From an uncultured Methylococcaceae bacterium (GTDB taxonomy: Bacteria; Pseudomonadota; Gammaproteobacteria; Methylococcales; Methylomonadaceae), in the NCBI GenBank assembly GCA_903938485.1, contig CAJADF010000127.1, positions 1-64,000 of the forward strand: a stretch of DNA of 64,000 bases, in the 5' to 3' direction. How positions within the stretch are numbered: position 1 is the first letter of the stretch; each line of letters opens with the position of its first letter. The notes under the pieces were generated by a model, which was not told the DNA's origin, did not search any database, and worked only from the letters and a program-made list of their open reading frames with translations. Shown here piece by piece: positions 20,381 through 31,558 of the stretch. Both the position numbers and the translations under genes were made by a program.

Positions 20381-20935
20381 TTACCAGATCAAATCATCAG
20401 GGATTTGATAATTTGCGTAAGGATCATCCTCAGCAACAACAGTTTCAGTTGATTGCTCATAATTAACTATCACGCTAGCCGGATCTCGATCAGCAATCTT
20501 CTTTGCCACCTCTGTCGCAACAACCTCATAGCCCTCGCCAAACTTAACAACCGCTAAACGACCTTTAATAATAAAATCGCGCATGGCTTCAGTCATATAA
20601 AGCGTTTTTACCTTATTATCATCTGTAAAGTTATAAGCTATGCCATTAGGGTCTCGCGCCTGCTTATTAAGTTCAATCAGTTGCTTAACTTGCGCAACTA
20701 ATTGCTTTTGCTCTTCAATCTGTTTTTTAGCCAGATTAAGTTCGCGATCTCTTTCTACCTGTTCTAGATACGCCTGTTTAGCTAACTCTTTAGCTTCATC
20801 TACTACCACAAGTTTATTATTACGTTGTTGCTGTTCTTGCTTACGCTTGTCTGACTTAATGCTTTTAGCCTTAGCGTTACTCACTAAACCAGATTTTAAC
20901 AACTGCTCCTGCAAAGATAATTTCTGTTTACTCAT
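20381..20935 (-). CDS. DUF2058 (YaiL-type) nucleoprotein family protein
   Basis: A 184-residue protein of the gammaproteobacterial DUF2058/YaiL family. The start MSKQKLSLQEQLLKSGLVSNAKAK (the conserved part is LSLQEQLLKSGLV) and the end DDPYANYQIPDDLIW match the family closely. The middle (about 25-95) is a highly charged coiled coil rich in K, E and Q. The C-terminal half has NFTDDNKVKTLY and KIADRDPASVIV. The function is not established. A 51-base stretch of this gene (20805-20855) recurs perfectly at 21810-21860. Confidence 0.93.
   Translation of the reverse strand: MSKQKLSLQEQLLKSGLVSNAKAKSIKSDKRKQEQQQRNNKLVVVDEAKELAKQAYLEQVERDRELNLAKKQIEEQKQLVAQVKQLIELNKQARDPNGIAYNFTDDNKVKTLYMTEAMRDFIIKGRLAVVKFGEGYEVVATEVAKKIADRDPASVIVNYEQSTETVVAEDDPYANYQIPDDLIW
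20805..20855. repeat. 51-base direct repeat, copy 1 (inside DUF2058 gene)
   Basis: Identical to 21810-21860 over 51 bases, in the same orientation, with starts 1005 bases apart. This copy lies in the coiled-coil coding part of the intact DUF2058 gene. Confidence 0.95.
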
Positions 20936-21005
20936 AAATAATAATTAGTCGTTCTACGTTTATTTAGAATCATTTAGCGAACCGAAACACCATTTCGCCC
21001 TAAAA

Positions 21006-21203
21006 TTAATGCACCCAGTTATCAAGTGCCTGCTGCTTAAGCTCTTCCGCAGAAATCTTGCACAGTTCACCATTCTTAATAACTACAATAGCAGTGTTTG
21101 TTTGTATTGCCGTTTGTCTGGCCAATTTTGCGGCTCGCTTAATGGCAATAAGAGAAGCAATTAAGTCAGGGTTTTTGGCATGGTGTAATTCAGATGCTTT
21201 CAT
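21006..21203 (-). CDS. Small protein downstream of zeta-like kinase (possible antitoxin)
   Basis: A 65-residue protein beginning MKASELHHAKNPD. Its ATG overlaps the stop of the zeta-like kinase (TAATG) and is preceded by GGGGAG, so the pair is translationally coupled. It is helical and lysine/alanine-rich (ASLIAIKRAAKLARQTAIQ), then has a short strand pair (AIVVIKNGELCKIS). I recognise no named family. A role as the kinase's antitoxin or partner follows only from the tight coupling. Toxin-first order would be the reverse of classical epsilon-zeta operons. Confidence 0.75.
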   Translation of the reverse strand: MKASELHHAKNPDLIASLIAIKRAAKLARQTAIQTNTAIVVIKNGELCKISAEELKQQALDNWVH

Positions 21204-21718
21204 TAATTTTCTCCCCATTCAATCAGTAGTGGTTCTTCAGCAGCATTGTCATATAACGCCCAGTCATTAACAATAGGACTGTAATGTTGTTCAAAATTTT
21301 TACGACCCGCATTAAAACGGCGACGAATAACATCTTCTGGAATATTATGACCGCCTTGCTGAACTCTAAAAGCAACACGATCAATTGCTACTTCAACTGT
21401 CGGTAAACTCAAAAAATACAAGCTGACCTGATACCCTTGATCCTGCCAGTTTTTTATATGCCTTATGTAAGCCAAACCAGAAAGTGTGGTTTCAAAAGCA
21501 AAGGACTGATGCTGATCGATACAACTAGCTATTTCCTGCAACATTAACCGCCCAGCCTTAATTGCCATTATTTCAGGCGCAAATGGCGACAAACCTGAGG
21601 CAATCAAATCTGCATTTATAAAGCGCTGACAATGAGCTTCTTGAGGTAAAAAAGCCCGAGCAAATGTTGTTTTTCCTGCTCCATTAGGCCCTGCGATAAT
21701 AATAATTCTTTGAGTCAT
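21203..21718 (-). CDS. Zeta-toxin-like P-loop kinase
   Basis: A 171-residue P-loop kinase. The start is the ATG at 21718 (MTQRIIIIAGPNG); an upstream TTG start is less likely. Walker A is AGPNGAGKTTFARAFLP at residues 9 onward. RFINADLIASGLSPF matches the zeta/UDP-GlcNAc kinase pattern with the Asp that activates substrate. FAFETTLSGLAYIRHI and the arginine-rich RVQQGGHNIPEDVIRRRF are typical of the lid region. Zeta toxins phosphorylate UDP-GlcNAc, but many chromosomal members of this family have unknown substrates. It lies in a toxin-antitoxin patch beside DUF2058 fragments. Confidence 0.85.
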   Translation of the reverse strand: MTQRIIIIAGPNGAGKTTFARAFLPQEAHCQRFINADLIASGLSPFAPEIMAIKAGRLMLQEIASCIDQHQSFAFETTLSGLAYIRHIKNWQDQGYQVSLYFLSLPTVEVAIDRVAFRVQQGGHNIPEDVIRRRFNAGRKNFEQHYSPIVNDWALYDNAAEEPLLIEWGEN

Positions 21719-21780
21719 GGTTATGATTATAAACGCCAACCCATCATAAACATATCGTTAGCGAACAATTCTGCCTAATT

Positions 21781-21860
21781 AAATCATCAAGGATCTGTTA
21801 GTTAGCACCACCACAAGTTTATTATTACGTTGTTGCTGTTCTTGCTTACGCTTGTCTGAC
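21781..21860 (-). pseudogene. Broken partial copy of the DUF2058 gene
   Basis: 21781-21806 matches the 3' end of the DUF2058 gene (20391-20416) at 21 of 26 positions. 21810-21860 matches its middle (20805-20855) at all 51 positions. The roughly 390 bases that separate these parts in the intact gene are missing. The remnant is therefore an internally deleted duplicate. It forms the present 3' end of the neighbouring toxin frame. Confidence 0.8.
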
Positions 21861-22177
21861 CGTAAGTAGCATCATGATCAGAAGCAATCGTCAGTAAGCG
21901 AATAAAATCTCTCTCACGATAAGCAGTAGCTCTTCTAGACTGAGTAATTCTTAATGAATAAAGGGCTTCTATACCTTTAGGCGGTTTAACACTAATGATC
22001 TTTTCCCATTTAAGACCATTATATCGATAAACCTGAGTCCAAGTCATCTGCCTAAGTTTATTAAGGGTGTCTAAAGCTGAATGTCTTTCTGGTTTTTGCA
22101 GCATCAAAAATATTTAATTGAAAAACAGGGTTATTAAGATCAAGTCGAACGAATTGCTCCTGATCAATCTTGGTCAC
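21802..22177 (-). pseudogene. Frameshifted RelE/ParE-like toxin gene
   Basis: Reading from a GTG at 22177 that overlaps the antitoxin stop gives TKIDQEQFVRLDLNNPVFQ then NIFDAAKT, the usual N-terminus of this toxin family. The continuing frame soon stops. The rest (KPERHSALDTLNKL, TWTQVYRYNGLKWEKI, ALYSLRITQSRRATAYRE, LLTIASDHDATYG) is in another frame, joined near the T and A runs at about 22090-22110. The last family residues after DATYG are replaced by translated DUF2058 repeat. I call the toxin inactive unless the frame is restored or the shorter frame is used. The family name is inferred from pattern. Confidence 0.65.
21810..21860. repeat. 51-base direct repeat, copy 2
   Basis: Perfect copy of 20805-20855. 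It begins directly after the toxin codons for DATYG, so the repeat boundary is also the toxin truncation point. Confidence 0.95.
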
Positions 22178-22457
22178 TAAACTGCTCCAAAATAGAATCT
22201 ACCTGACTATCAATTGGGGAGTTAGCTAGCGCCCAAGCCATTGCAATTTGTAAATCATCTGCTGCTTTGGGTTGATGCAACCAAATTTCATTATCTGGAA
22301 TAATGGTAGCTGTTCGAACCAACCAAACACCTGGTTCGCGCTCTTCTACAAGAACCTGTCGTCCTGCGTATTGCTTACCCAATGAGATTTGTCCGTTTGC
22401 ACCAATAACTTTGACGCTTGGGGAAGAAACAACTGATGCCACAGTGAGCTCAAACAA
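22164..22457 (-). CDS. AbrB/MazE-like antitoxin
   Basis: A 97-residue protein. The core VKVIGANGQISLGKQYAGRQ followed by VLVEEREPGVWLVRTA has the swapped-hairpin look of AbrB/SpoVT antitoxins. The C-terminal half (EIWLHQPKAADDLQIAMAWA) is the toxin-binding style tail. The toxin frame begins at a GTG within its last codons, a normal translational coupling. Because the toxin is frameshifted, this may be an orphaned antitoxin. It lies divergent from the chaperone operon. Confidence 0.75.
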   Translation of the reverse strand: MFELTVASVVSSPSVKVIGANGQISLGKQYAGRQVLVEEREPGVWLVRTATIIPDNEIWLHQPKAADDLQIAMAWALANSPIDSQVDSILEQFSDQD

Positions 22458-22643
22458 TTTAAAAAATACTAACGCACTATAGCACTAACATAATTCAAAA
22501 AACTATACAGCTGCAAAGAACGTAAATCAGCATGTTTGGGGCGTTTTTTTATGCCTTGTGTGGGGAGCACTCTTACAATTGAAATTCTTTTAAAAATCTA
22601 ACGTAACATTAATAAAATTTTAATGGATATTATGTCTAATTAA

Positions 22644-22671
22644 TTGTTCACGAACTTAAAAGAGCTATAAT
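22644..22671 (+). promoter_or_regulatory. Probable sigma-70 promoter of the Hsp70/AAA+ operon
   Basis: TTGTTC (22644-22649) and a consensus TATAAT (22666-22671) are 16 bases apart. GTTC and GAAC form a small inverted repeat around the -35 end (22646-22655). Transcription would start near 22678. Confidence 0.6.
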
Positions 22672-22731
22672 CTTGTGAAAAATTCAATAGAAAGAATCAA
22701 TAGCGCAACAATACTTTATGAAGAGTTGGGC

Positions 22732-22833
22732 ATGATAATGCAACTAGTTGAATTGATATTTTTTGTTGAAAATTTACTGGCTAACCTGTTATTTTTCTTC
22801 TTAGGCAAGCTAATAGTTCTAGTATCCCCATAG
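22732..22833 (+). CDS. Possible 33-residue hydrophobic leader peptide
   Basis: An ATG at 22732 preceded by GAAGAG at six bases opens a 33-residue frame that is almost entirely hydrophobic (LVELIFFVENLLANLLFFFL). The frame extends back to a GTG at 22675, but that lies at the predicted transcription start. It ends 16 bases before the ATG of the GrpE-like gene. It could be a small membrane protein or chance. Confidence 0.3.
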   Translation: MIMQLVELIFFVENLLANLLFFFLGKLIVLVSP

Positions 22834-22849
22834 TCACAAGGAGTTGGTA

Positions 22850-23254
22850 ATGATATTTGAAGAAAAAAATTTAATTGTTGAGCAAGAGCAATCGCTTAAG
22901 GATAATAATCAATTTGAAAAGTCACTAATTGATATAGCAGTAGAGAGCTGGCGTTTTTCTAGGTTATTTGCACGTGTAGTAAATAAACTTGATGCTGGCG
23001 AAGCGGGTCGCTACTTGAATCAATTGCGTTATTTTCAAAAGAAAGTAGAAGACAATCTTGATGCTGCCGGATTAAAATTCGTTAATGTAGAGGAGCAAGC
23101 ATTCGATCCTGGCATGGCTGCCTCAGCATTGAATATTGGTGATTTTGAGCCTGACGATATCCTTTTCGTAGATCAAATGGTTGAGCCCATCATTATGGGC
23201 ACTGAAGGACTCAAGAAACAGGGCACGGTAATGCTTCGAAAGGTAAAAGAATGA
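22850..23254 (+). CDS. GrpE-like nucleotide exchange factor
   Basis: A 134-residue protein from the ATG at 22850, which has AAGGAG six bases upstream (a TTG two codons earlier is less likely). The last 70 residues resemble the GrpE head: a helix ending LRYFQKKVEDNLDAAGLKFVN, then EQAFDPGMAASALN, then a beta part with VDQMVEPIIM and GTVMLRKVK. The long N-terminal helix of GrpE is much reduced. Its stop overlaps the Hsp70 start by four bases (ATGA), so the two proteins are co-produced. It probably releases ADP from the Hsp70 next door. It is not the housekeeping grpE, which would be longer. Confidence 0.82.
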   Translation: MIFEEKNLIVEQEQSLKDNNQFEKSLIDIAVESWRFSRLFARVVNKLDAGEAGRYLNQLRYFQKKVEDNLDAAGLKFVNVEEQAFDPGMAASALNIGDFEPDDILFVDQMVEPIIMGTEGLKKQGTVMLRKVKE

Positions 23255-25761
23255 AATACGTAGGGATCGATCTTGGTACAACCAATAGTGCAATTTGTTC
23301 TTATGATGGTGAATCTGTTCATCTATATAAAAGTCCCGATCAAAATGATGTTACCCCGTCTGCAATCTTTTTTGATAAACGGGGTAACAAATATTTAGGA
23401 AAGCGTGCATACGATAGTGCTGCTAAGAATCCCGATAACGCAGCAACGAAGTTCAAAAGGATGATGGGCACAAGTACACCAATTAAGCTAACTGCTGTCG
23501 ATATGACAATGACACCAGAGCAATGCTCAGCCGAAATTATCAAATTGTGTTTTGGATATCTTCCTGAAGAAATACGAAATAGTGATGATACCGGTACAGT
23601 AATTACAGTACCTGCCGCATTCAATCAGATGCAAAAGGATGCGACACTAGCTGCGGCTGAAATGGCAGGTCTTGGTAAAGTTGCATTAATGCAGGAACCG
23701 GTTGCAGCAGTAATGAGCGTGATGAAACAAAGGAAAAATGATGGTGTTTTTCTTATTTTCGATTTAGGCGGTGGTACTCTTGATATTGCGATTGCTGAAA
23801 GCATTAGTGGTCGTGTAAGTCTTTTGTCACATGGTGGTGTTGCCATGTGTGGCGGTACGGATTTTGATCGAACTATACTCGACAATGTTGTAAAGCCCTG
23901 GTTAATAGAACGCTTTGATTTACCTGAAGACTTCAGCGCTAACCCCAAGTATAAGTCCTTGCTTAGAATGGGCCTATGGGCTGTAGAGAAAGCTAAAATT
24001 GAACTTTCAGCCAAAGAGGAGACGGTTATAAGTCTCCCCGAATCTGATCTCGGCATTTCCGATGAATCTGATAACGAAGTATATATTGATATACCTTTTA
24101 CAAGAAAACTGCTTGATTCACTCATCACAGATAAAGTAGACGAAGCCATCCAATCAGCGCGTGATACCTTGGAAAAGGCTCTTATGTGCGCTCATGATAT
24201 TCAGCGGATTGTTTTTGTTGGTGGACCAACCCATTATCCGCCCTTACGAGAAAAAGTTTGTTTTGAATTGGGGATTCCTGCTGGAAAATTGCCAGATGGT
24301 TCACCTGAAGTAAACCCCATGACTGCTGTTGCCGAAGGTGCTGCTGTTTTTGCAGAGTCAATTGACTGGGCCTCACAAAGTAGAGGCCGAAAGAATTCAC
24401 GAGGTACGATTAGTGTAGGTAGTCACTTAGCACTTTCATTTAATTATGTAACTAGAACACCTGACTCAAAAGCAAAGGTTATAGCTAAGGTTGATGGTGA
24501 TATTACATTGGGTGTGGAATTTCAAATCGACAGCCTAGATACAGGTTCATCATCAGGTCGTGTTGTTTTAAAAGATGGAGCGACCTTAGATCTTACATTG
24601 ACCAAGCCTGGTGAAAATACCTTCAAAGTTTTCGTATTTGATGCCAATGGAGGGGCTATTAATTTAGGCGAAGATAAAATTGTGATTACTCGCACTGCAG
24701 CGAGTATTGATGCTATTCCTGCATCATATTCAATAAGTGTTGAGGCACTTGATAAGATTGGCGGAAGGTATGTGCCTGTTTATCTCGTGCGTGAAGGTGA
24801 TCAGTTGCCTAAAAAAGGTAAATTAATTTTTAAGGCCGAGGAATCACTAAAAGCAGGTAGTCCAGGTTCTATCAAATTCAAATTATGGGAAGGTGAAATT
24901 ACTGATCCAGTAAAGGATAACCGCTTTGTTGGTTTATTTGAGATTAAGGGTTCTCATTTCGATGATGGCGTGATTGGTGCGGGAGCAGAATTGATCTGTG
25001 ATTATGAAGTGCATGACTCAGGTAATATTGTCATTGAGATTTCTATTCCTTCAATTGGTGGTTCTTTTTCTTCAGGGCGAAACTTCTATTCAAGACTAGA
25101 AGGTCAAATTGATTATTCTAATGCAGTAAAGCTTGTTGAAGAACAGTCAGAAAATGCTATGCAACGCTTAAATGAAATGGCTGCAAAAATTGATGATCCG
25201 AGAATTGATCAAGCCAGAGAAAAACTAGAAAAAGCTGGGACTTTAAAATCTGATGAAAGTGACCCAGAGATTACTAAGCAGGCTATGGATAACATTCAAG
25301 AGGCAAAGAAGTTGTTGGCATTGGCTCGCAAGGGGAATTTGCCAGAAATTCGGCAGATGGAGTTGGATAGAACGGTTGATTACTTCAATAAACACATTCG
25401 TGAATATGCGCGTCCCACAGAAGTCAGTGCTTTTGATAATCTTACTAAAACTGCTCAACGAGCTATTAACAACAATGGCGGTGATTTCGAATCACACCTG
25501 GATGAGCTTCGCGGCAAAAATTTCATGATCCTTTGGCGCCAAGATTGGTTTGTGATTGATCGATTTAAGTGGTTGGCTGAAAGTTATTATTTATTTCCAG
25601 ATAGTCATGAACATTCGGAGTTAATTGCGCTGGGCACAGAAGCACTCAAATCGAATGATATTGAAAAACTGCGTACAGTCGTGCGTCATCTTGATTCTAT
25701 ACGCATCGGTTCTGCTGATGCAGATGAAATGATGGCGGGTGCAAACATCATCCGGAGTTGA
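23251..25761 (+). CDS. Divergent Hsp70 (DnaK-like) chaperone
   Basis: An 836-residue Hsp70; ordinary DnaK is about 640. The ATPase domain (1 to about 375) is intact: GIDLGTTNSAICSYDG, the EPVAAVMS segment, FDLGGGTLDIAIAE, and IVFVGGPTHYPPLREKV. The DnaK interdomain linker with its run of leucines is absent; GTISVGSHLALSFN stands in that position. A beta-rich region continues to about 590. The last 230 residues are helical and charged (NAMQRLNEMAAKID, EKLEKAGTLKSDE, FMILWRQDWFVIDRFKWLAESYY). The substrate part is therefore unlike DnaK, which suggests a dedicated client. It overlaps the GrpE-like gene upstream and the AAA+ gene downstream. Confidence 0.93.
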   Translation: MKYVGIDLGTTNSAICSYDGESVHLYKSPDQNDVTPSAIFFDKRGNKYLGKRAYDSAAKNPDNAATKFKRMMGTSTPIKLTAVDMTMTPEQCSAEIIKLCFGYLPEEIRNSDDTGTVITVPAAFNQMQKDATLAAAEMAGLGKVALMQEPVAAVMSVMKQRKNDGVFLIFDLGGGTLDIAIAESISGRVSLLSHGGVAMCGGTDFDRTILDNVVKPWLIERFDLPEDFSANPKYKSLLRMGLWAVEKAKIELSAKEETVISLPESDLGISDESDNEVYIDIPFTRKLLDSLITDKVDEAIQSARDTLEKALMCAHDIQRIVFVGGPTHYPPLREKVCFELGIPAGKLPDGSPEVNPMTAVAEGAAVFAESIDWASQSRGRKNSRGTISVGSHLALSFNYVTRTPDSKAKVIAKVDGDITLGVEFQIDSLDTGSSSGRVVLKDGATLDLTLTKPGENTFKVFVFDANGGAINLGEDKIVITRTAASIDAIPASYSISVEALDKIGGRYVPVYLVREGDQLPKKGKLIFKAEESLKAGSPGSIKFKLWEGEITDPVKDNRFVGLFEIKGSHFDDGVIGAGAELICDYEVHDSGNIVIEISIPSIGGSFSSGRNFYSRLEGQIDYSNAVKLVEEQSENAMQRLNEMAAKIDDPRIDQAREKLEKAGTLKSDESDPEITKQAMDNIQEAKKLLALARKGNLPEIRQMELDRTVDYFNKHIREYARPTEVSAFDNLTKTAQRAINNNGGDFESHLDELRGKNFMILWRQDWFVIDRFKWLAESYYLFPDSHEHSELIALGTEALKSNDIEKLRTVVRHLDSIRIGSADADEMMAGANIIRS

Positions 25762-25763
25762 GT

Positions 25764-27203
25764 GTGGTAATTGATGCTTGGCTCCCAGTAGGTTACTTGC
25801 TCCCAGATGGTGCGAAGACTAGAGTCGTTTTATTTGAGGGAACAGGGTGGCAAATTCTTGAAACACAAGGCAATGGACGAGCACTTATAGCGAAAGACGA
25901 TCTAGTGCAGCGCTGGATCGAATCTGAACTCATCGAAACAGGGGCGATGCTAACTTTTATTTTTGGCAATCAGCGATTATGTTCAATTGCATGTGGGGCT
26001 AGTCAGTTTCTTTGCCCGATATTAGAAAGTAAATCACCCGATACAAAAAGTGATGCCCTTGCTTTTTCTTTAGCATTTAAGGCGACACGTGAGATTGATA
26101 AAGAGTCCCCGCTGCAAGATGCGCTTTATGTTGAGAAAATGAGTCGTCTTTTACCCACCTACAGCATCAGTCCAAGAATAGATGATGATATCGTACTAGG
26201 CTACTGGCTGACTGGCGGTGCAAATATCTCAGTGAAAACCTTTCGACGTCTACGCCAATCATTGAGTTGGCTAGAGGCAGAATCTTTGAGAGATATTGTT
26301 GTAACAGCGGGCTTTGAAGTGACAGAGCTTATTTCTTCAGAGAGACATAAACCACTGACACAAAAGCCAGCCGACTTGTCTGAGCAAACATCTGATAAGC
26401 CTAAAGAGACTCCTGATACACGGCAAGGTCATAAGATTTTCGAATTGCCAGGTCGTATGGAAATTGCCTCGTTTATTAATGAACATCTTGTCGATATCCT
26501 TCAAAATAGGGATAGGTACAAAGCAATGGGTATTGAGTTTCCATCAGCGATAGTACTTCATGGCCCGCCTGGGTGTGGCAAAACTTTTGCCGTTGAGCGA
26601 TTAGTTGATTTTCTTGGTTGGCCAAGTTTCCAAATTGATGCATCAAGTGTCGCTAGCCCCTATATTCATGAAACTAGCAAAAAAGTTGCCGAAGTTTTCG
26701 ATAAAGCGATGGAAAATGCTCCTTCTGTTCTTGTAATTGACGAAATGGAGGCTTTTTTGGCCGATCGAGAAATGGGCTCTGGTCATCATCGGGTTGAAGA
26801 AGTAGCCGAGTTTCTAAGGCGTATCCCTGAGGCAGCAAAGAATGAGGTATTGATTGTTGCGATGACCAATCGGATCGACATGATTGATTCAGCCATACTT
26901 CGTCGTGGACGGTTCGATCATATTATTAAAGTGGATTTTGCTAGCGAGGCCGAGGTACTAGCTTTACTTGAAAAGCTTCTGTCATCTCTACCGAAAGATA
27001 AGGATGTTGATGCTGTACCTTTTGCGAAAGAACTCGCAGGTAGACCGCTATCGGATGTGGCTTTTGTGGTACGAGAGGGTGCGAGGCTTGCCGCGCGTTC
27101 TGGTAAAGACCGGCTTGATCAAGCCAGCTTATTTGCGGCTCTGCAAACAGCATCCATGCGGGAGCGCGAAGGTGGGAAAAAACATAATATTGGCTTCATT
27201 TAA
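25764..27203 (+). CDS. AAA+ ATPase of the Hsp70 operon
   Basis: A roughly 480-residue ATPase starting at GTG 25764 (an in-frame TTG at 25758 also works); the start overlaps or abuts the Hsp70 stop. The first 230 residues are unrecognised and end in a proline/threonine-rich hinge. The classical AAA module follows. Counting from the TTG, Walker A is GPPGCGKT at 269-276, Walker B is VLVIDEMEAF at 324-333, sensor 1 is VAMTNRIDMID, and the arginine finger region is RRGRFD at 382-387. It most resembles the FtsH/Cdc48 group but has no protease domain or membrane helix. It may unfold or remodel the same clients as the Hsp70. Confidence 0.93.
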   Translation: MVIDAWLPVGYLLPDGAKTRVVLFEGTGWQILETQGNGRALIAKDDLVQRWIESELIETGAMLTFIFGNQRLCSIACGASQFLCPILESKSPDTKSDALAFSLAFKATREIDKESPLQDALYVEKMSRLLPTYSISPRIDDDIVLGYWLTGGANISVKTFRRLRQSLSWLEAESLRDIVVTAGFEVTELISSERHKPLTQKPADLSEQTSDKPKETPDTRQGHKIFELPGRMEIASFINEHLVDILQNRDRYKAMGIEFPSAIVLHGPPGCGKTFAVERLVDFLGWPSFQIDASSVASPYIHETSKKVAEVFDKAMENAPSVLVIDEMEAFLADREMGSGHHRVEEVAEFLRRIPEAAKNEVLIVAMTNRIDMIDSAILRRGRFDHIIKVDFASEAEVLALLEKLLSSLPKDKDVDAVPFAKELAGRPLSDVAFVVREGARLAARSGKDRLDQASLFAALQTASMREREGGKKHNIGFI

Positions 27204-27215
27204 CAGGAAAAGGAT

Positions 27216-28526
27216 ATGGCATCTGAAGAGGAGAATAATGATGAATCAGCGAAAGGATTTTCTGGTTTTTCGTCAATGGTTTCAGTTGTTGACGATATTA
27301 ATAGGAGTGAAGAAATTCAATATTTTGAACCTTCTAAACCAATTGCTCCTGTATTACAAACTGAACGCCAATCCACCACCACTGGATCACTCGCTTCACA
27401 GAAGTACCGACCAAACAAAATAAAATTACTCTTTTGGGTAATTATTATTTGTGCAGTTATCTTTTTAAGATGGCTGATTATAGCATCAGGTATTGATAGC
27501 AATAGGTTTACACTGCCCAACTATTCTGCCAAATCGGATGTTGATAGTTCATTTCAACAGATGGATAAGACAATAGAAGCCAACAAGCAATCATTTAAAC
27601 CTATTCGACCATCTGAAGAAAAGCCGCCAGTTGGAACAAATCTTAATCTCACTGTGACTCAAATCAGTTACTGCTTAGCCGAAGACCTTAGGTTAAGTGG
27701 AGCTAAGCAAAGTCTAAATAATGACATTGAGCCTGATGTGGATTTATATAATCAAATGATTAATGATTATAATGCTCGTTGTGGTTATTTTCATTATCGA
27801 GCAGGTACATTAGACGCTGCTCGATTAGTGATTGATAGATATCGAGAGATCCTTGAGTCCGATGGACGAGCTCGATTTACATCCAGGTCTTCTTTTAGTA
27901 TTAGTAGCCCTGCTAATATTAATACAACGATTAAAGCGGAAGATTTGATAAACCAAATGCTTGAGAATGCTTTGATTGATGGTGGATTTAATAAAGAATT
28001 TGAAATACAACAGTTAAAACTTGAAATTGAAAGATTACCTAAACCCATTAAAGGTAAAAAGAAAATAGCTAGGGAGTTTAATGAAAATGGATTAATTTTA
28101 TTAAAAGTGGGTGATCTTAATGCTGCGGTAACAAAGTTTCAAGAGGCCTATGAATTAGATAAGTCCGATACTGAAATAGCAAGTAATTTAGGTTATGCGT
28201 ATTTGAAACAAGGTAATTTAGATTTGGCGAAAGAAACAATAGTTATTAGTTTAACGTTGACGCCAGGGCGAGCAGTTTCTTGGGATAATTTAGCAGTTGT
28301 TTTTGGTCAGAGAGGTGATATTAACAAAGCTATAGCATGCTTTTCTAATACATATAGATTTTCAAAAAACAGATTAAGAACTCATCAATTTATGAAAAAA
28401 ATTAACCAAAGTGAAGAGTTTATTTATTTAAAGCAAGCGAGAAATCATGTTATTGATTGGGCAGAAAAAAAATATCCTGAATTAGTTGGTCAAGATTCAA
28501 TTCAGTTGAAACAAGGGCTCTTTTAA
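27216..28526 (+). CDS. Membrane-anchored TPR protein
   Basis: A 436-residue protein with a good AGGAAAAGGAT ribosome site 12 bases after the AAA+ gene. The first 65 residues are polar and acidic. One membrane helix lies at about residues 69-90 (LLFWVIIICAVIFLRWLII). The rest is probably on the far side of the membrane, or the protein has the reverse topology; charge (KYRPNKIK before the helix) favours a cytoplasmic N-terminus. Two or three TPR units occupy about 288-385 (NENGLILLKVGDLNAAVTKF, NLGYAYLKQGNLDLAKE, NLAVVFGQRGDINKAIACF). It is likely a scaffold or client-recognition part of the operon. Confidence 0.88.
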   Translation: MASEEENNDESAKGFSGFSSMVSVVDDINRSEEIQYFEPSKPIAPVLQTERQSTTTGSLASQKYRPNKIKLLFWVIIICAVIFLRWLIIASGIDSNRFTLPNYSAKSDVDSSFQQMDKTIEANKQSFKPIRPSEEKPPVGTNLNLTVTQISYCLAEDLRLSGAKQSLNNDIEPDVDLYNQMINDYNARCGYFHYRAGTLDAARLVIDRYREILESDGRARFTSRSSFSISSPANINTTIKAEDLINQMLENALIDGGFNKEFEIQQLKLEIERLPKPIKGKKKIAREFNENGLILLKVGDLNAAVTKFQEAYELDKSDTEIASNLGYAYLKQGNLDLAKETIVISLTLTPGRAVSWDNLAVVFGQRGDINKAIACFSNTYRFSKNRLRTHQFMKKINQSEEFIYLKQARNHVIDWAEKKYPELVGQDSIQLKQGLF

Positions 28527-28634
28527 GCGTTATTACAATAAATTATTATAACTAAAGTGGTTAAATCCTCATGAGTATTGTTAAAGATCAATTTTATAAA
28601 AAACCAGTGATAATCTAATTGAAAGGGTCTTACG

Positions 28635-30302
28635 TTGTCTGATTTATACCAAAATCCATTCTTTTTGTTGGGCGCAACTACCCGAGATGATAGGAGGCAT
28701 ATTGTTGAGTTGGCAGATGAGAAAGCGCTATTGCTTGATCACGAGCTTTGTCAAAAAGCACGTACAGATTTGATTGGTCTAAGAGCTAGACTTGCGGCTG
28801 AAATGTCTTGGTTACCAGGTGTTTCACCCAAAGAGGCTTTACAACTTGTTGATCAATTATTGAACAACCCTATGTTTATACGCATGGCTTCAGGTTTGCC
28901 ATCACTAGCTCATGCAAATTTAATGGCGGCTGCTATCAATGTTGTCGCTGCAAAAGAATATCCAGAAAATCCAGAAGACTTATCTCGATTTATTAAAGAA
29001 ATGGCCTATCTTGTTGATGATATAACTGTTGATGATATTATTCGCGACATAAATGAAGATCGTTTAATTGCTGGATTTCCTTTAATTCTAGCAAAAGACT
29101 TAGTTGAGCAAGAGCTTATTGATCGTAAACGATATTACCAAAAATCAATTAAAGAAGCTTTAAATCGTCATACTCCAAAATCTTTAATTCTAGCAATAAC
29201 TTTAGCTGTGGATAGCACGACAGCAAGTGGTAAAGACCAGGCACCACAATTAATCGACGAAATTGTAGATAGCTATGAACTAGAGTCCCAATATTTTCTT
29301 CAAAAGGAAGCCGAGAATGCTAGTATTGTAATCAAAAGAATTAGTGATTACGCAACATCTGATCAGGCTTTAATAAAACCCTTGATTGATAAGCTTGATA
29401 AGGTTATCGCAAATTGGTTTACTGTTGCTTATCCTATTCAAATGAGTATGAATTCACGAGGTTTGGTTCATAATCAGAGCCGTGATTTGGGCTTTGAAAT
29501 TAGAGAATTGGCGATCTATCTGTTTAATGAACATAAGGCCATTAATGAAGCTAAACAGATTATTGACTTACTAAGAAACTACTTTTCACAGTGTGCAGCA
29601 GTAGCTGTTTACGTTGAAGACGATGAAAATGTACTAGCTGGAATTGCTAATAAGCGAAAGTTTGATAAATTAATAAGTCCGATTTACGAGCTTTGCAATG
29701 AAGCTTTGTCAGTCTCGGGACGTAATCCACAATACGCTTATATTCAAGGGCAAAATATTATAGCTAAGGTACCTGAGTTGTTAAAGGCTGCTAAATTAAT
29801 GGGTGCACCACTTGAGGTCATTAATGAATCTAAAGACCACATTGCCGCTACCTTAACAACTTGTGCAGTCAAATTCGGAAATAAAACATCAAAGTGGAAA
29901 TCATGTTTAGACTTACTTCATTCGGCGCATATATTTGCTATTGATCCGCAAATTAAGGAAAGGGTGTCACACAATCTAGAAATTGTCAGGAATAATATAA
30001 TCCTTTATGGAAATACTGAGCCGATGAGTTCCACACCACCGCTATACACCATTAATGGATGCGGTTTAACACTTTATGGCTCTACGGACACTGATTTAAC
30101 TAATGGCTCATACATGGCGACTTATTACTTTGTTTTGTTTTTTGTTCCCATTTTTCCAATTTGTCGATATCGAGTAATATCATCTGGCGGGAGAAGTTAC
30201 CGTTTTTTAGGTAAGGGGGCTCTCCGAACTATTGATAAGTGGCACATATCTATATCTGTACTTGTAATGATAATCCTTATCATTACAAATATTCGTTACT
30301 AG
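28635..30302 (+). CDS. Membrane J-like protein of the Hsp70 operon
   Basis: A 555-residue protein from a TTG start with GAAAGGGT upstream. Residues 6-20 (NPFFLLGATTRDDRR) mimic helix I of a J-domain, and LGLRARL-type residues near 45-60 (DLIGLRARLAAEMSWLPG) continue the helical fold. I find no HPD tripeptide, so it is a degenerate J-domain. The middle 400 residues are helical. The C-terminus carries a small GCGLTLYGSTDTD beta element, a hydrophobic segment (MATYYFVLFFVPIFPICRY, about 493-511) and a final membrane helix (537-555). It would tether the Hsp70 to the membrane. It resembles, in plan, the J-like partners of the Hsp70 HscC, but I infer this only from layout. Confidence 0.85.
   Translation: MSDLYQNPFFLLGATTRDDRRHIVELADEKALLLDHELCQKARTDLIGLRARLAAEMSWLPGVSPKEALQLVDQLLNNPMFIRMASGLPSLAHANLMAAAINVVAAKEYPENPEDLSRFIKEMAYLVDDITVDDIIRDINEDRLIAGFPLILAKDLVEQELIDRKRYYQKSIKEALNRHTPKSLILAITLAVDSTTASGKDQAPQLIDEIVDSYELESQYFLQKEAENASIVIKRISDYATSDQALIKPLIDKLDKVIANWFTVAYPIQMSMNSRGLVHNQSRDLGFEIRELAIYLFNEHKAINEAKQIIDLLRNYFSQCAAVAVYVEDDENVLAGIANKRKFDKLISPIYELCNEALSVSGRNPQYAYIQGQNIIAKVPELLKAAKLMGAPLEVINESKDHIAATLTTCAVKFGNKTSKWKSCLDLLHSAHIFAIDPQIKERVSHNLEIVRNNIILYGNTEPMSSTPPLYTINGCGLTLYGSTDTDLTNGSYMATYYFVLFFVPIFPICRYRVISSGGRSYRFLGKGALRTIDKWHISISVLVMIILIITNIRY
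30262..30288 (+). repeat. Perfect 12-base hairpin in the 3' end of the J-like gene
   Basis: TTGTAATGATAA (30262-30273) pairs perfectly with TTATCATTACAA (30277-30288) across a three-base loop, inside the codons for the last membrane helix. No T-run follows, so it is not a standard terminator. It could stabilise or process the mRNA end. Confidence 0.7.
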
Positions 30303-30672
30303 GTAAATTGATGTTCTATTTAAAAACTAATATGTGCTTTGAATTATATTAGGTCTTTCATTATGACAATTGCCTAATTTAAAGTCATAAAACACAATAT
30401 CATTTTATTGATGATGTGATTTTTAGGGCACAAATATTATGACTCCTTGTGTATGGCTAGTTACTCTTTTAACCGACATTGTGATAGTTTGGGTAAATAG
30501 CCCCAATGGGCTTGTGCATTCATATTTAGGATGATCCAGTGTGTTGTAATTAGCGTTAATAATTGAGCCTGTTTTATACATGCCGAGAACTACACCAATA
30601 ACTAGTGTTCAACAACTCAAGCGCATACCGGTTTAAGATAGTTTTGTATTTAGATTAAATGATGCCATGAGC

Positions 30673-30693
30673 AATTCTGATATTTTCAGAATT
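30673..30693. repeat. Small hairpin
   Basis: AATTCTGA (30673-30680) and TCAGAATT (30686-30693) pair perfectly around a five-base loop in the AT-rich part of the gene-free region. Confidence 0.5.
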
Positions 30694-31092
30694 TATTCCC
30701 TATCAATTCACATATAATCTCTAATAATCTTTATCGCGAACATGTATAAGGTCGCTCTAGAAACCCCATAGAGTCTCGCCAGTGCACTTACTGACAACCT
30801 AGCCTGTTAATCAGCATGTATTTCAAGACTATAATTTATAAAAACTACAAAATAATAATACTGATAATCGGAATGGTGTTTTCAGGAAAAACTAGCAAAT
30901 ATTCAACGCGTAGTAACAAATCCAGCAATTGGCCTCGTCTTTGGGCTAATCAACCCTAAAATTATTTAGAAGGTTAGGATAGCAAACTGATGGGGCAGAA
31001 TAAGATGTAATTAAACGTGTCTCACTCAATGAGTGCTCCATTACCCCTTACAAGCCTCTGTATCAGATATAACAATCTGTATCTGAGCTATC

Positions 31093-31148
31093 TTACGGCG
31101 TGTCTCGACTCTCATTACACTATTCAACCCTCTGACGGCATGTCTCGA
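31093..31148. repeat. 16-base direct repeat, two copies 40 bases apart
   Basis: TTACGGCGTGTCTCGA (31093-31108) and TGACGGCATGTCTCGA (31133-31148) differ at two positions. Partial inverted versions occur at 31175-31191 and 31221-31233, and GACACGTGTC at 31179-31188 is itself a perfect palindrome. Confidence 0.75.
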
Positions 31149-31283
31149 GCGTCTGTTGACAAGGTTTGAGCAGTTGGAGACACGTGTCGAGTAGCCTGAG
31201 ACAAGGTTAGCAACCCTTACGACACGTCACGCCAACATACAATTTGAGCCGACATATTCTTGTGGCGTGTGGCGATATGCTCA

Positions 31284-31312
31284 ACACATCTCGCAAAGGT
31301 TGCGAGATGTGT
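31284..31312. repeat. Perfect 12-base stem hairpin
   Basis: ACACATCTCGCA (31284-31295) pairs with TGCGAGATGTGT (31301-31312) around AAGGT. No T-run follows on either side, which argues against a simple terminator. Confidence 0.85.
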
Positions 31313-31558
31313 CAACAGAATGTGGAACCGTGTTAACGAGTCCTTGAGACTCCATACTAAACAGCGCAACTCGCCTTAAGTTGTAACAGAGACGTCTCTC
31401 AAGTCCCACTAGGCGCCTTCATGAGTAGCCAAACGATCTAATCTAGATTCAGAAAATATGCTTAGCTATTTGATAAGATCAACTATACGATGGCTTATTG
31501 TTCGCACAAATTGCCGTTATTGCCACCCTAATTAAGTTGCTCTAATTTACTAAAAACT

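Follow-up and report, generated by a model that had tools for sequence, protein, structure and literature searches.

The question raised by this locus is what purpose a set of linked chaperone-like genes, together with a gene for a membrane protein, would serve in a bacterium. The window, by which we mean the whole stretch of 64,000 nucleotides that was analysed (contig CAJADF010000127.1, positions 1 to 64,000, of an uncultured Methylococcaceae bacterium), contains five open reading frames (ORFs) on the plus strand between 22850 and 30302, and all five genes of the same-strand set described in an earlier note on this DNA were recovered in the ORF list. In order, they encode a GrpE-like protein, an Hsp70, an AAA+ ATPase, a protein with one transmembrane (TM) helix called gene 4 here, and a J-like protein, and together they are referred to as the cassette (Table 1). 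The answer that we favour, at about even chances, is that the cassette encodes a mobile and self-contained protein-remodelling machine that is tethered to the envelope and is predicted to act, most likely, against phages. More broadly, since it is often found among anti-phage genes, it ranks as a strong candidate for an immune or envelope-stress system of bacteria that has yet to be described. The four-gene core of GrpE-like, Hsp70, AAA+ and J-like genes almost always occurs with a bitopic membrane protein.

When a genome-wide scan was done with the Hsp70, 134 relatives were found of which 80 were kept, and co-occurrence was counted with hidden Markov models on the 55 loci that had enough flanking sequence. 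The GrpE-like, AAA+ and J-like genes were beside the Hsp70 gene in 55 of 55 loci and all five genes were present in 51 of them; the outcome that the earlier note had named as fatal to its idea, that these genes would rarely be found together, was not observed. Since the loci were picked by Hsp70 similarity, 55 of 55 means that a cassette Hsp70 is nearly always accompanied by its partners, and the association of the five genes is far beyond chance. The order was GrpE-Hsp70-AAA-membrane-J in 33 loci and GrpE-Hsp70-AAA-J-membrane in 10. The hosts are alpha-, beta- and gammaproteobacteria, Thermodesulfobacteriota, Planctomycetota, Verrucomicrobiota, Acidobacteriota, Bacteroidota, Chlorobiota, Chloroflexota and Synergistota, with the reservation that several of them are bins in which stray contigs are possible, and relatives were found in Pseudomonas, Comamonas, Cupriavidus, Serratia and one E. 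coli strain. The occurrence is patchy: of 398 genomes sampled from the phylum, 4 carry the cassette, the window's own genome counted, and a DNA search found it in 1 of 5,426 E. coli genomes. The median identity to the window was 67% for Hsp70, 66% for GrpE, 60% for AAA, 42% for the J-like protein and 32% for gene 4. The slowly changing core, the fast changing J-like protein and gene 4, and the membrane tether together suggest a constant engine with changing sensors, and the divergence of the latter two is what sensors or adaptors in an arms race would be expected to show.

In the Hsp70, Pfam covers the nucleotide-binding domain (NBD) only (PF00012, residues 4-369, 1e-54), and the nucleotide-binding motifs are kept across relatives, GIDLGTTNS, K69 and the DLGGGT region being invariant or nearly so. 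The AlphaFold2 model (predicted local distance difference test, pLDDT, 84.5) aligns with the NBD and the substrate-binding beta domain (SBDbeta) of DnaK and BiP to residue ~616 (Z ~45; root-mean-square deviation 2.6 over 468 residues with 7b7z_B), and because of this alignment the protein has, as judged from its model, both the NBD and the SBDbeta. For the SBDbeta the alignment is clear at the level of structure and weak at the level of sequence. The hydrophobic linker that joins the NBD directly to the SBD is absent and its place is occupied by a beta domain of ~110 residues that does not align to the SBD of DnaK. The missing DnaK linker and the helical tail, both of which had been noticed from the sequence, are also seen in the model. 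The closest Hsp70 outside the window is 86% identical and comes from an uncultured Methylococcaceae bacterium.

The GrpE-like and J-like proteins gave no significant match in the Pfam search, and their profiles gave no match to PDB sequences in hmmsearch. When the GrpE-like family was compared with real GrpE by hhalign, P was 8.6e-5 with a score of 35.5, compared to 18.7 for the reversed control and at most 14.7 for 20 shuffles. The match spans the C-terminal half of GrpE including the FDP motif, and the long N-terminal coiled coil of GrpE is missing. PF01025 matched the cassette GrpE-like genes in the genomes of four relatives, in each case below the cut-off. This supports the view that the protein is a remote relative of GrpE. 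The AAA+ ATPase (PF00004, 1.8e-30) has an N-terminal domain and one AAA module, and the motifs GPPGCGKT, DEM, TN and RRGRFDH are conserved in the family alignment. By profile it is of the IetA-like and VCP/NVL-like type (IteA_antiphage 1.6e-26; IetA 3.5e-27, with 93 bits against a cut-off of 510).

The N-terminus of the J-like protein matched the J-domain profile with P=8.7e-5 and a score of 26.7, whereas the reversed control gave 10.9 and 60 shuffles gave at most 13.5. In this alignment the HPD loop is deleted, in agreement with the absence of HPD pointed out before, and PF00226 detected no cassette J-like gene in 8 genomes. The model (pLDDT 90) has helices at residues 8-12, 20-30, 36-47 and 49-58 and a helical solenoid up to 458. 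A known fold was sought for this solenoid with Foldseek and VIA-align, which gave just the common helical-repeat matches to designed or unrelated repeats (Z up to 10.9). In the window the protein ends in a hydrophobic beta hairpin and a TM helix; typing by sequence patterns, which left 12 rows unassigned, found this ending in the window and 12 other rows and a soluble beta domain in 44. On the Hsp70 tree this C-terminal module was exchanged no fewer than 8 times, and even the sister rows L025 and L067 differ in it. The J-like protein had been described as a membrane protein, which holds for some variants, that of the window included, but not for others. The proposal in the earlier note of a complete private chaperone machine stands insofar as a dedicated set is kept across many phyla, but "complete" is doubtful because the sole J-like protein is without HPD. 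Some other trigger, or a J-protein of the host, may set off ATP hydrolysis.

The homologues of gene 4 share the cytosolic motif KGFAGLSSLVSDV, one TM helix preceded by basic residues, and a domain with two conserved cysteines. From the positive-inside rule the N-terminus is predicted to be inside and the two-cysteine domain periplasmic. What follows at the C-terminus is swapped: it is TPR in the window and PG_binding_1, SH3_3 or other modules elsewhere, PG_binding_1 being the ending in 5 of 8 separate homologues scanned (L025, L054, L061, L079 and L092). The earlier description of a one-helix TPR protein was right about the single TM helix, but TPR is the C-terminus of the window variant only, and "bitopic protein" is the better name for gene 4, in which the N-terminal cytosolic motif and the periplasmic domain are what is conserved. 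In Sinorhizobium a 636-aa fusion joins the J-like core (E=1.2e-43) to the TM and periplasmic domain of gene 4 (E=2.1e-35); the cytosolic motif is gone and the locus is without an AAA gene. Because the two are fused there, this is the best evidence from sequence that the J-like adaptor and the gene 4 membrane protein probably work together. The fusion locus itself (L093, 11980-18667, on a Sinorhizobium plasmid) also has a GrpE-like gene and an Hsp70 gene split by an ISNCY element, and its neighbourhood includes an S8 peptidase, an MBL hydrolase and a DNA methyltransferase. L091 has, upstream and on the opposite strand, a protein with a bacterial SH3 domain that can be counted as no more than a doubtful member.

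What the computation established is the list of parts, the fusion and the contexts, and from these we infer the following order of events and target. Gene 4, through its domain that faces the periplasm or peptidoglycan, would sense or mark a disturbance of the envelope as a phage enters or assembles, and the cytosolic motif that it conserves would dock on the J-like adaptor. The Sinorhizobium fusion would be the covalent form of this docking, and the adaptor would hand the bound protein to Hsp70, which the private GrpE-like factor would recycle. The AAA+ ring would then extract, unfold or disassemble the delivered protein. As no separate toxin or nuclease was recognised, the effector step would be the remodelling itself, either by breaking a phage protein complex or by freeing a lethal membrane activity. 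That this amounts to a new class of immunity, running from an envelope sensor through an HPD-less adaptor to a dedicated Hsp70, GrpE-like factor and AAA+, in which remodelling rather than a nuclease or toxin stops the phage, is put forward tentatively, as possible rather than probable. In kind it is a chaperone-based conflict or stress machine, with a real chance of being a new class. Chaperones are classically helpers of phages, and a mobile, envelope-tethered Hsp70-AAA+ machine would, if true, put the same chemistry to use as a weapon or a sentinel. Also, a natural Hsp70 in which a domain replaces the allosteric linker and whose J-like partner is HPD-less makes the rules of Hsp70 coupling testable, in a cassette that is compact and portable.

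Is this a known system? The gene set is not named in PADLOC, NCBIfam, Pfam or PHROGs and no description was found in the mainly open-access literature searched, which agrees with the earlier view of it as a candidate undescribed system. Like DnaK-DnaJ-GrpE with ClpB, the cassette unites in one set an Hsp70 with NBD and SBDbeta, a GrpE-like factor, a J-like domain and an AAA+ protein, but the linker is replaced by the beta domain, the J-like protein is HPD-less with a helical solenoid, the AAA+ is a single VCP/IetA-like module unlike ClpB, and the whole is membrane-tethered and horizontally mobile. Among the features of a DnaK-type system the NBD motifs and SBDbeta are present, and the direct linker and a J-protein with HPD are absent. 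Nearest in composition are the GAP1-N2 GTPase-centred conflict systems, in whose predicted operons HSP70, GrpE and DnaJ or TPR proteins are found, along with FNIII-repeat proteins, mainly in actinobacteria and firmicutes and with no AAA+ named (PMC7159879). The cassette shares with them HSP70, GrpE and a DnaJ- or TPR-bearing protein, but it has an AAA+ and not a GTPase (Pfam found no GTPase domain in the five proteins), is mainly in Pseudomonadota and has the bitopic membrane protein. The Hsp70-like CnuD proteins of CoCoNuT are described as having degenerate Walker-like motifs and McrBC GTPase/HEPN partners (PMC11090510); they too place an Hsp70 NBD/SBD unit in an operon predicted to serve defence, but the motifs of the cassette Hsp70 are invariant, and the five proteins include no recognisable McrB-type GTPase with coiled coils, nuclease, McrBC or HEPN. 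The nearest defence AAA type is IetAS, whose AAA+ module is similar, with the cassette far below the curated cut-off; unlike IetAS it is without the subtilisin-like IetS, and Pfam found no protease domain in the five genes. Zorya is a complex of the inner membrane that is attached to peptidoglycan and responds when a phage enters. The membrane and peptidoglycan theme is common to both and Zorya is a neighbour of the cassette in pPNAP01, but no homologous component was found among the five, the cassette having a single-TM protein and chaperone machinery instead. In the main text on DefensePredictor there is no mention of chaperone, DnaK, DnaJ or GrpE (PMC13092281). A phage origin was considered and rejected: no J-like homologue was found among 50,697 phage records and phage Hsp70 matches the NBD only, and the PHROGs search of the five proteins gave generic matches only.

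The cassette is mobile between unrelated bacteria. Tn7-like elements carry it as cargo on plasmids of Shewanella and Aeromonas, and the Hsp70 tree mixes host classes (31 changes of class label compared to a minimum of 15). In most sister genomes that have both on one contig, the DUF2058 gene and leuA are adjacent; their distance is ~50-250 bp in G013, G015, G019 and G024 and 10.6 kb in the window. In the nearest sequenced species, G029, whose LeuA protein is 99% identical, ~450 bp of other sequence stands in place of the missing segment and the alignment on either side of it is at 93-95%. Other genes occupy this site in G014, and the DUF2058-leuA site is an insertion hotspot. The empty site together with the Tn7-like and defence-island contexts upholds the earlier judgement that the locus is accessory.

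The neighbours of the cassette were examined with PADLOC by taking, at each of 40 loci, the two largest genes within 7 kb and, for comparison, the two largest from a 12-kb region picked at random in that genome. The genes at the cassette loci matched 75 PADLOC families and those of the random regions 7 (1e-15), counts that are inflated by redundant models and compared with control windows taken from the longest known contigs, a mild bias. The families include type I restriction-modification, AbiEii, SoFic, MADS, Bil, HEC-05 and GajB. At the protein level the cut-off was 1e-40, and clearly different defence matches were seen in at least 11 of the 79 neighbour proteins, compared to at most 2 of 80 from the random regions (p ~0.008). 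In pPNAP01 the cassette is flanked by Zorya and BREX-2 genes, and in E. coli HeN100 an island at tRNA-Phe holds it next to RADAR rdrB and a remnant of dptF, so that it is located among known defence genes. This bears on an alternative that we consider unlikely, namely that the cassette serves stress tolerance through protein quality control and not defence. Every recognised part is a chaperone or unfoldase part, no nuclease or toxin was recognised, and a mobile protein-quality-control island, the transmissible locus of stress tolerance (tLST), exists in beta- and gammaproteobacteria (PMC8290217). On the other hand, the named neighbours are defence genes and not heat-shock genes, and the fast divergence of the J-like protein and gene 4 would be unexpected for housekeeping repair. 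Sigma-32 heat-shock control was not supported either: a sigma-32-like promoter upstream scored at least 11 at only 2 of 74 loci, compared to 5% of shuffles and to 12-13 for E. coli dnaK and grpE. The tLST genes (ClpK, Hsp20, FtsH and companions) were neither among the five genes nor in the 25 commonest neighbour families, the neighbours not having been searched one by one. Of the defence or stress roles suggested earlier, defence gains from the defence-island and Tn7-like contexts, and stress is left without a sigma-32 signal.

Several observations weigh against an anti-phage machine. In the window the cassette adjoins a zeta-like kinase gene and no classical defence island, several flanks elsewhere have ordinary chromosomal genes, and to argue from a place in a defence island is to argue by association; the PADLOC figures are numbers of families, and the difference counted in proteins is modest when the strict cut-off is applied. 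Gene 4 is absent in 4 of the 55 loci, and in the window it has TPR instead of peptidoglycan binding. The J-like protein is without HPD, the usual means of driving Hsp70, and no toxin, nuclease or other effector domain was recognised in the five proteins. Another alternative, which we regard as rather improbable, is a regulatory or guard system in which the Hsp70 cycle restrains the membrane protein or the AAA+ ring until misfolded or coat protein made by the phage draws the chaperone off and frees a growth-arresting membrane activity (abortive infection). There is a precedent for chaperone-based indirect sensing because bNACHT25 senses a phage coat protein via the host DnaJ (PMC12169576), and an HPD-less adaptor suggests holding over ordinary client delivery. 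The hydrophobic C-terminus of the window J-like protein also fits this scheme; many J-like variants, however, end in a soluble beta domain without a hydrophobic segment, and no pore-forming domain was recognised. Least probable of all is a private assembly or export chaperone that would fold, insert or assemble some structure of the cell surface or envelope, which the additional genes of a long variant may encode: the membrane tether and the 4-6 downstream genes at some loci, including an RDD membrane protein, would fit, but these genes are absent in most loci, the window included, there is no conserved client, and carriage by Tn7-like elements and in defence islands is not what such a role would predict. 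The remodelling machine, probably acting against phages, is the reading that we retain.

Table 1. Positions in the window of the cassette genes, their parts and the insertion in which they lie
Feature	Position	Strand	Basis
GrpE-like nucleotide exchange factor, ~134 aa	22850..23254	+	profile-profile match; weak PF01025 matches in relatives
Hsp70, 836 aa; NBD = residues 1-370	23251..25761	+	PF00012; AlphaFold2 model; structural alignment
Hsp70 inserted beta-strand domain, ~residues 375-488, at the place of the DnaK linker	24373..24714	+	predicted strands; unaligned to DnaK SBD
Hsp70 substrate-binding beta domain, ~residues 489-616	24715..25098	+	structural alignment; weak sequence support, hhalign P=0.005
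Hsp70 extended helical tail, residues 626-819	25126..25707	+	AlphaFold2 model
Single-ring AAA+ ATPase, 481 aa	25758..27203	+	PF00004; IetA-like and VCP/NVL-like profiles; family alignment
Gene 4, one-TM protein, 436 aa	27216..28526	+	TPR families; family alignment; topology inference
Gene 4 cytosolic motif KGFSGFSSMVSV	27252-27287	+	
Gene 4 TM helix	27426-27482	+	
Gene 4 conserved domain with Cys153/Cys189	about 27624-27860	+	
Gene 4 C-terminal TPR	28074-28370	+	
J-like adaptor, 555 aa	28635..30302	+	profile-profile match; structure model; family alignment
J-like adaptor, HPD-less J-like N-terminus	28635-28814	+	
J-like adaptor, C-terminal TM helix	30228-30296	+	
Variable insertion between DUF2058 gene and leuA	20936..31558	.	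sister-genome comparison
Segment absent from nearest sequenced species G029	22580..31104	.	genome alignment

The operon had been placed from 22644 onwards, but the likelier start of the GrpE-like gene is the ATG at 22850, which is preceded by AAGGAG, and 22644-22849 is leader. The first three genes overlap by a few bases as reported, the GrpE-like and Hsp70 genes by 4 bp and the Hsp70 and AAA genes by 4 bp, and there are gaps of 12 bp between the AAA gene and gene 4 and of 108 bp between gene 4 and the J-like gene. The DNA after 30302 is gene-free as had been said, but no direct repeats of at least 11 bp were found there. Beside the insertion, on the minus strand, is the zeta-toxin-like P-loop kinase gene (21203-21739; PF06414, 1.9e-11) with a neighbour of 70 aa on the same strand (21006-21218). 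Near the insertion, at 21806-21853 and 20884-20937, are short fragments that match the first half of the DUF2058 gene, and G014 and G029 have such fragments likewise; these may be traces of repeated integration. The occupants of the site in G014 (L198, 2293-4744) are a 611-aa protein without a Pfam match, a HigA-like gene and a 154-aa protein that to the eye resembles a nuclease. Aeromonas caviae pKAM471_1 (L090, 6070-8567) has a broken Hsp70 gene, in two pieces, and AAA or Hsp70 genes are split at L031, L066 and L068, loci from metagenome-assembled genomes, by real breaks or assembly errors. G511 (L197, 5038-8323) has a distant Hsp70 of the same family on its own, with a full-length profile match and 29% identity over the tail; next to it is a 224-aa protein of no assigned family, and the setting is an ordinary chromosomal one. 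Finally, the long variant with extra genes after the J-like gene was seen at L024, L026, L036, L037, L080, L089 and L090, and its extra families are proteins of ~214, 165, 350 and 217 aa, the RDD membrane protein and one small protein.

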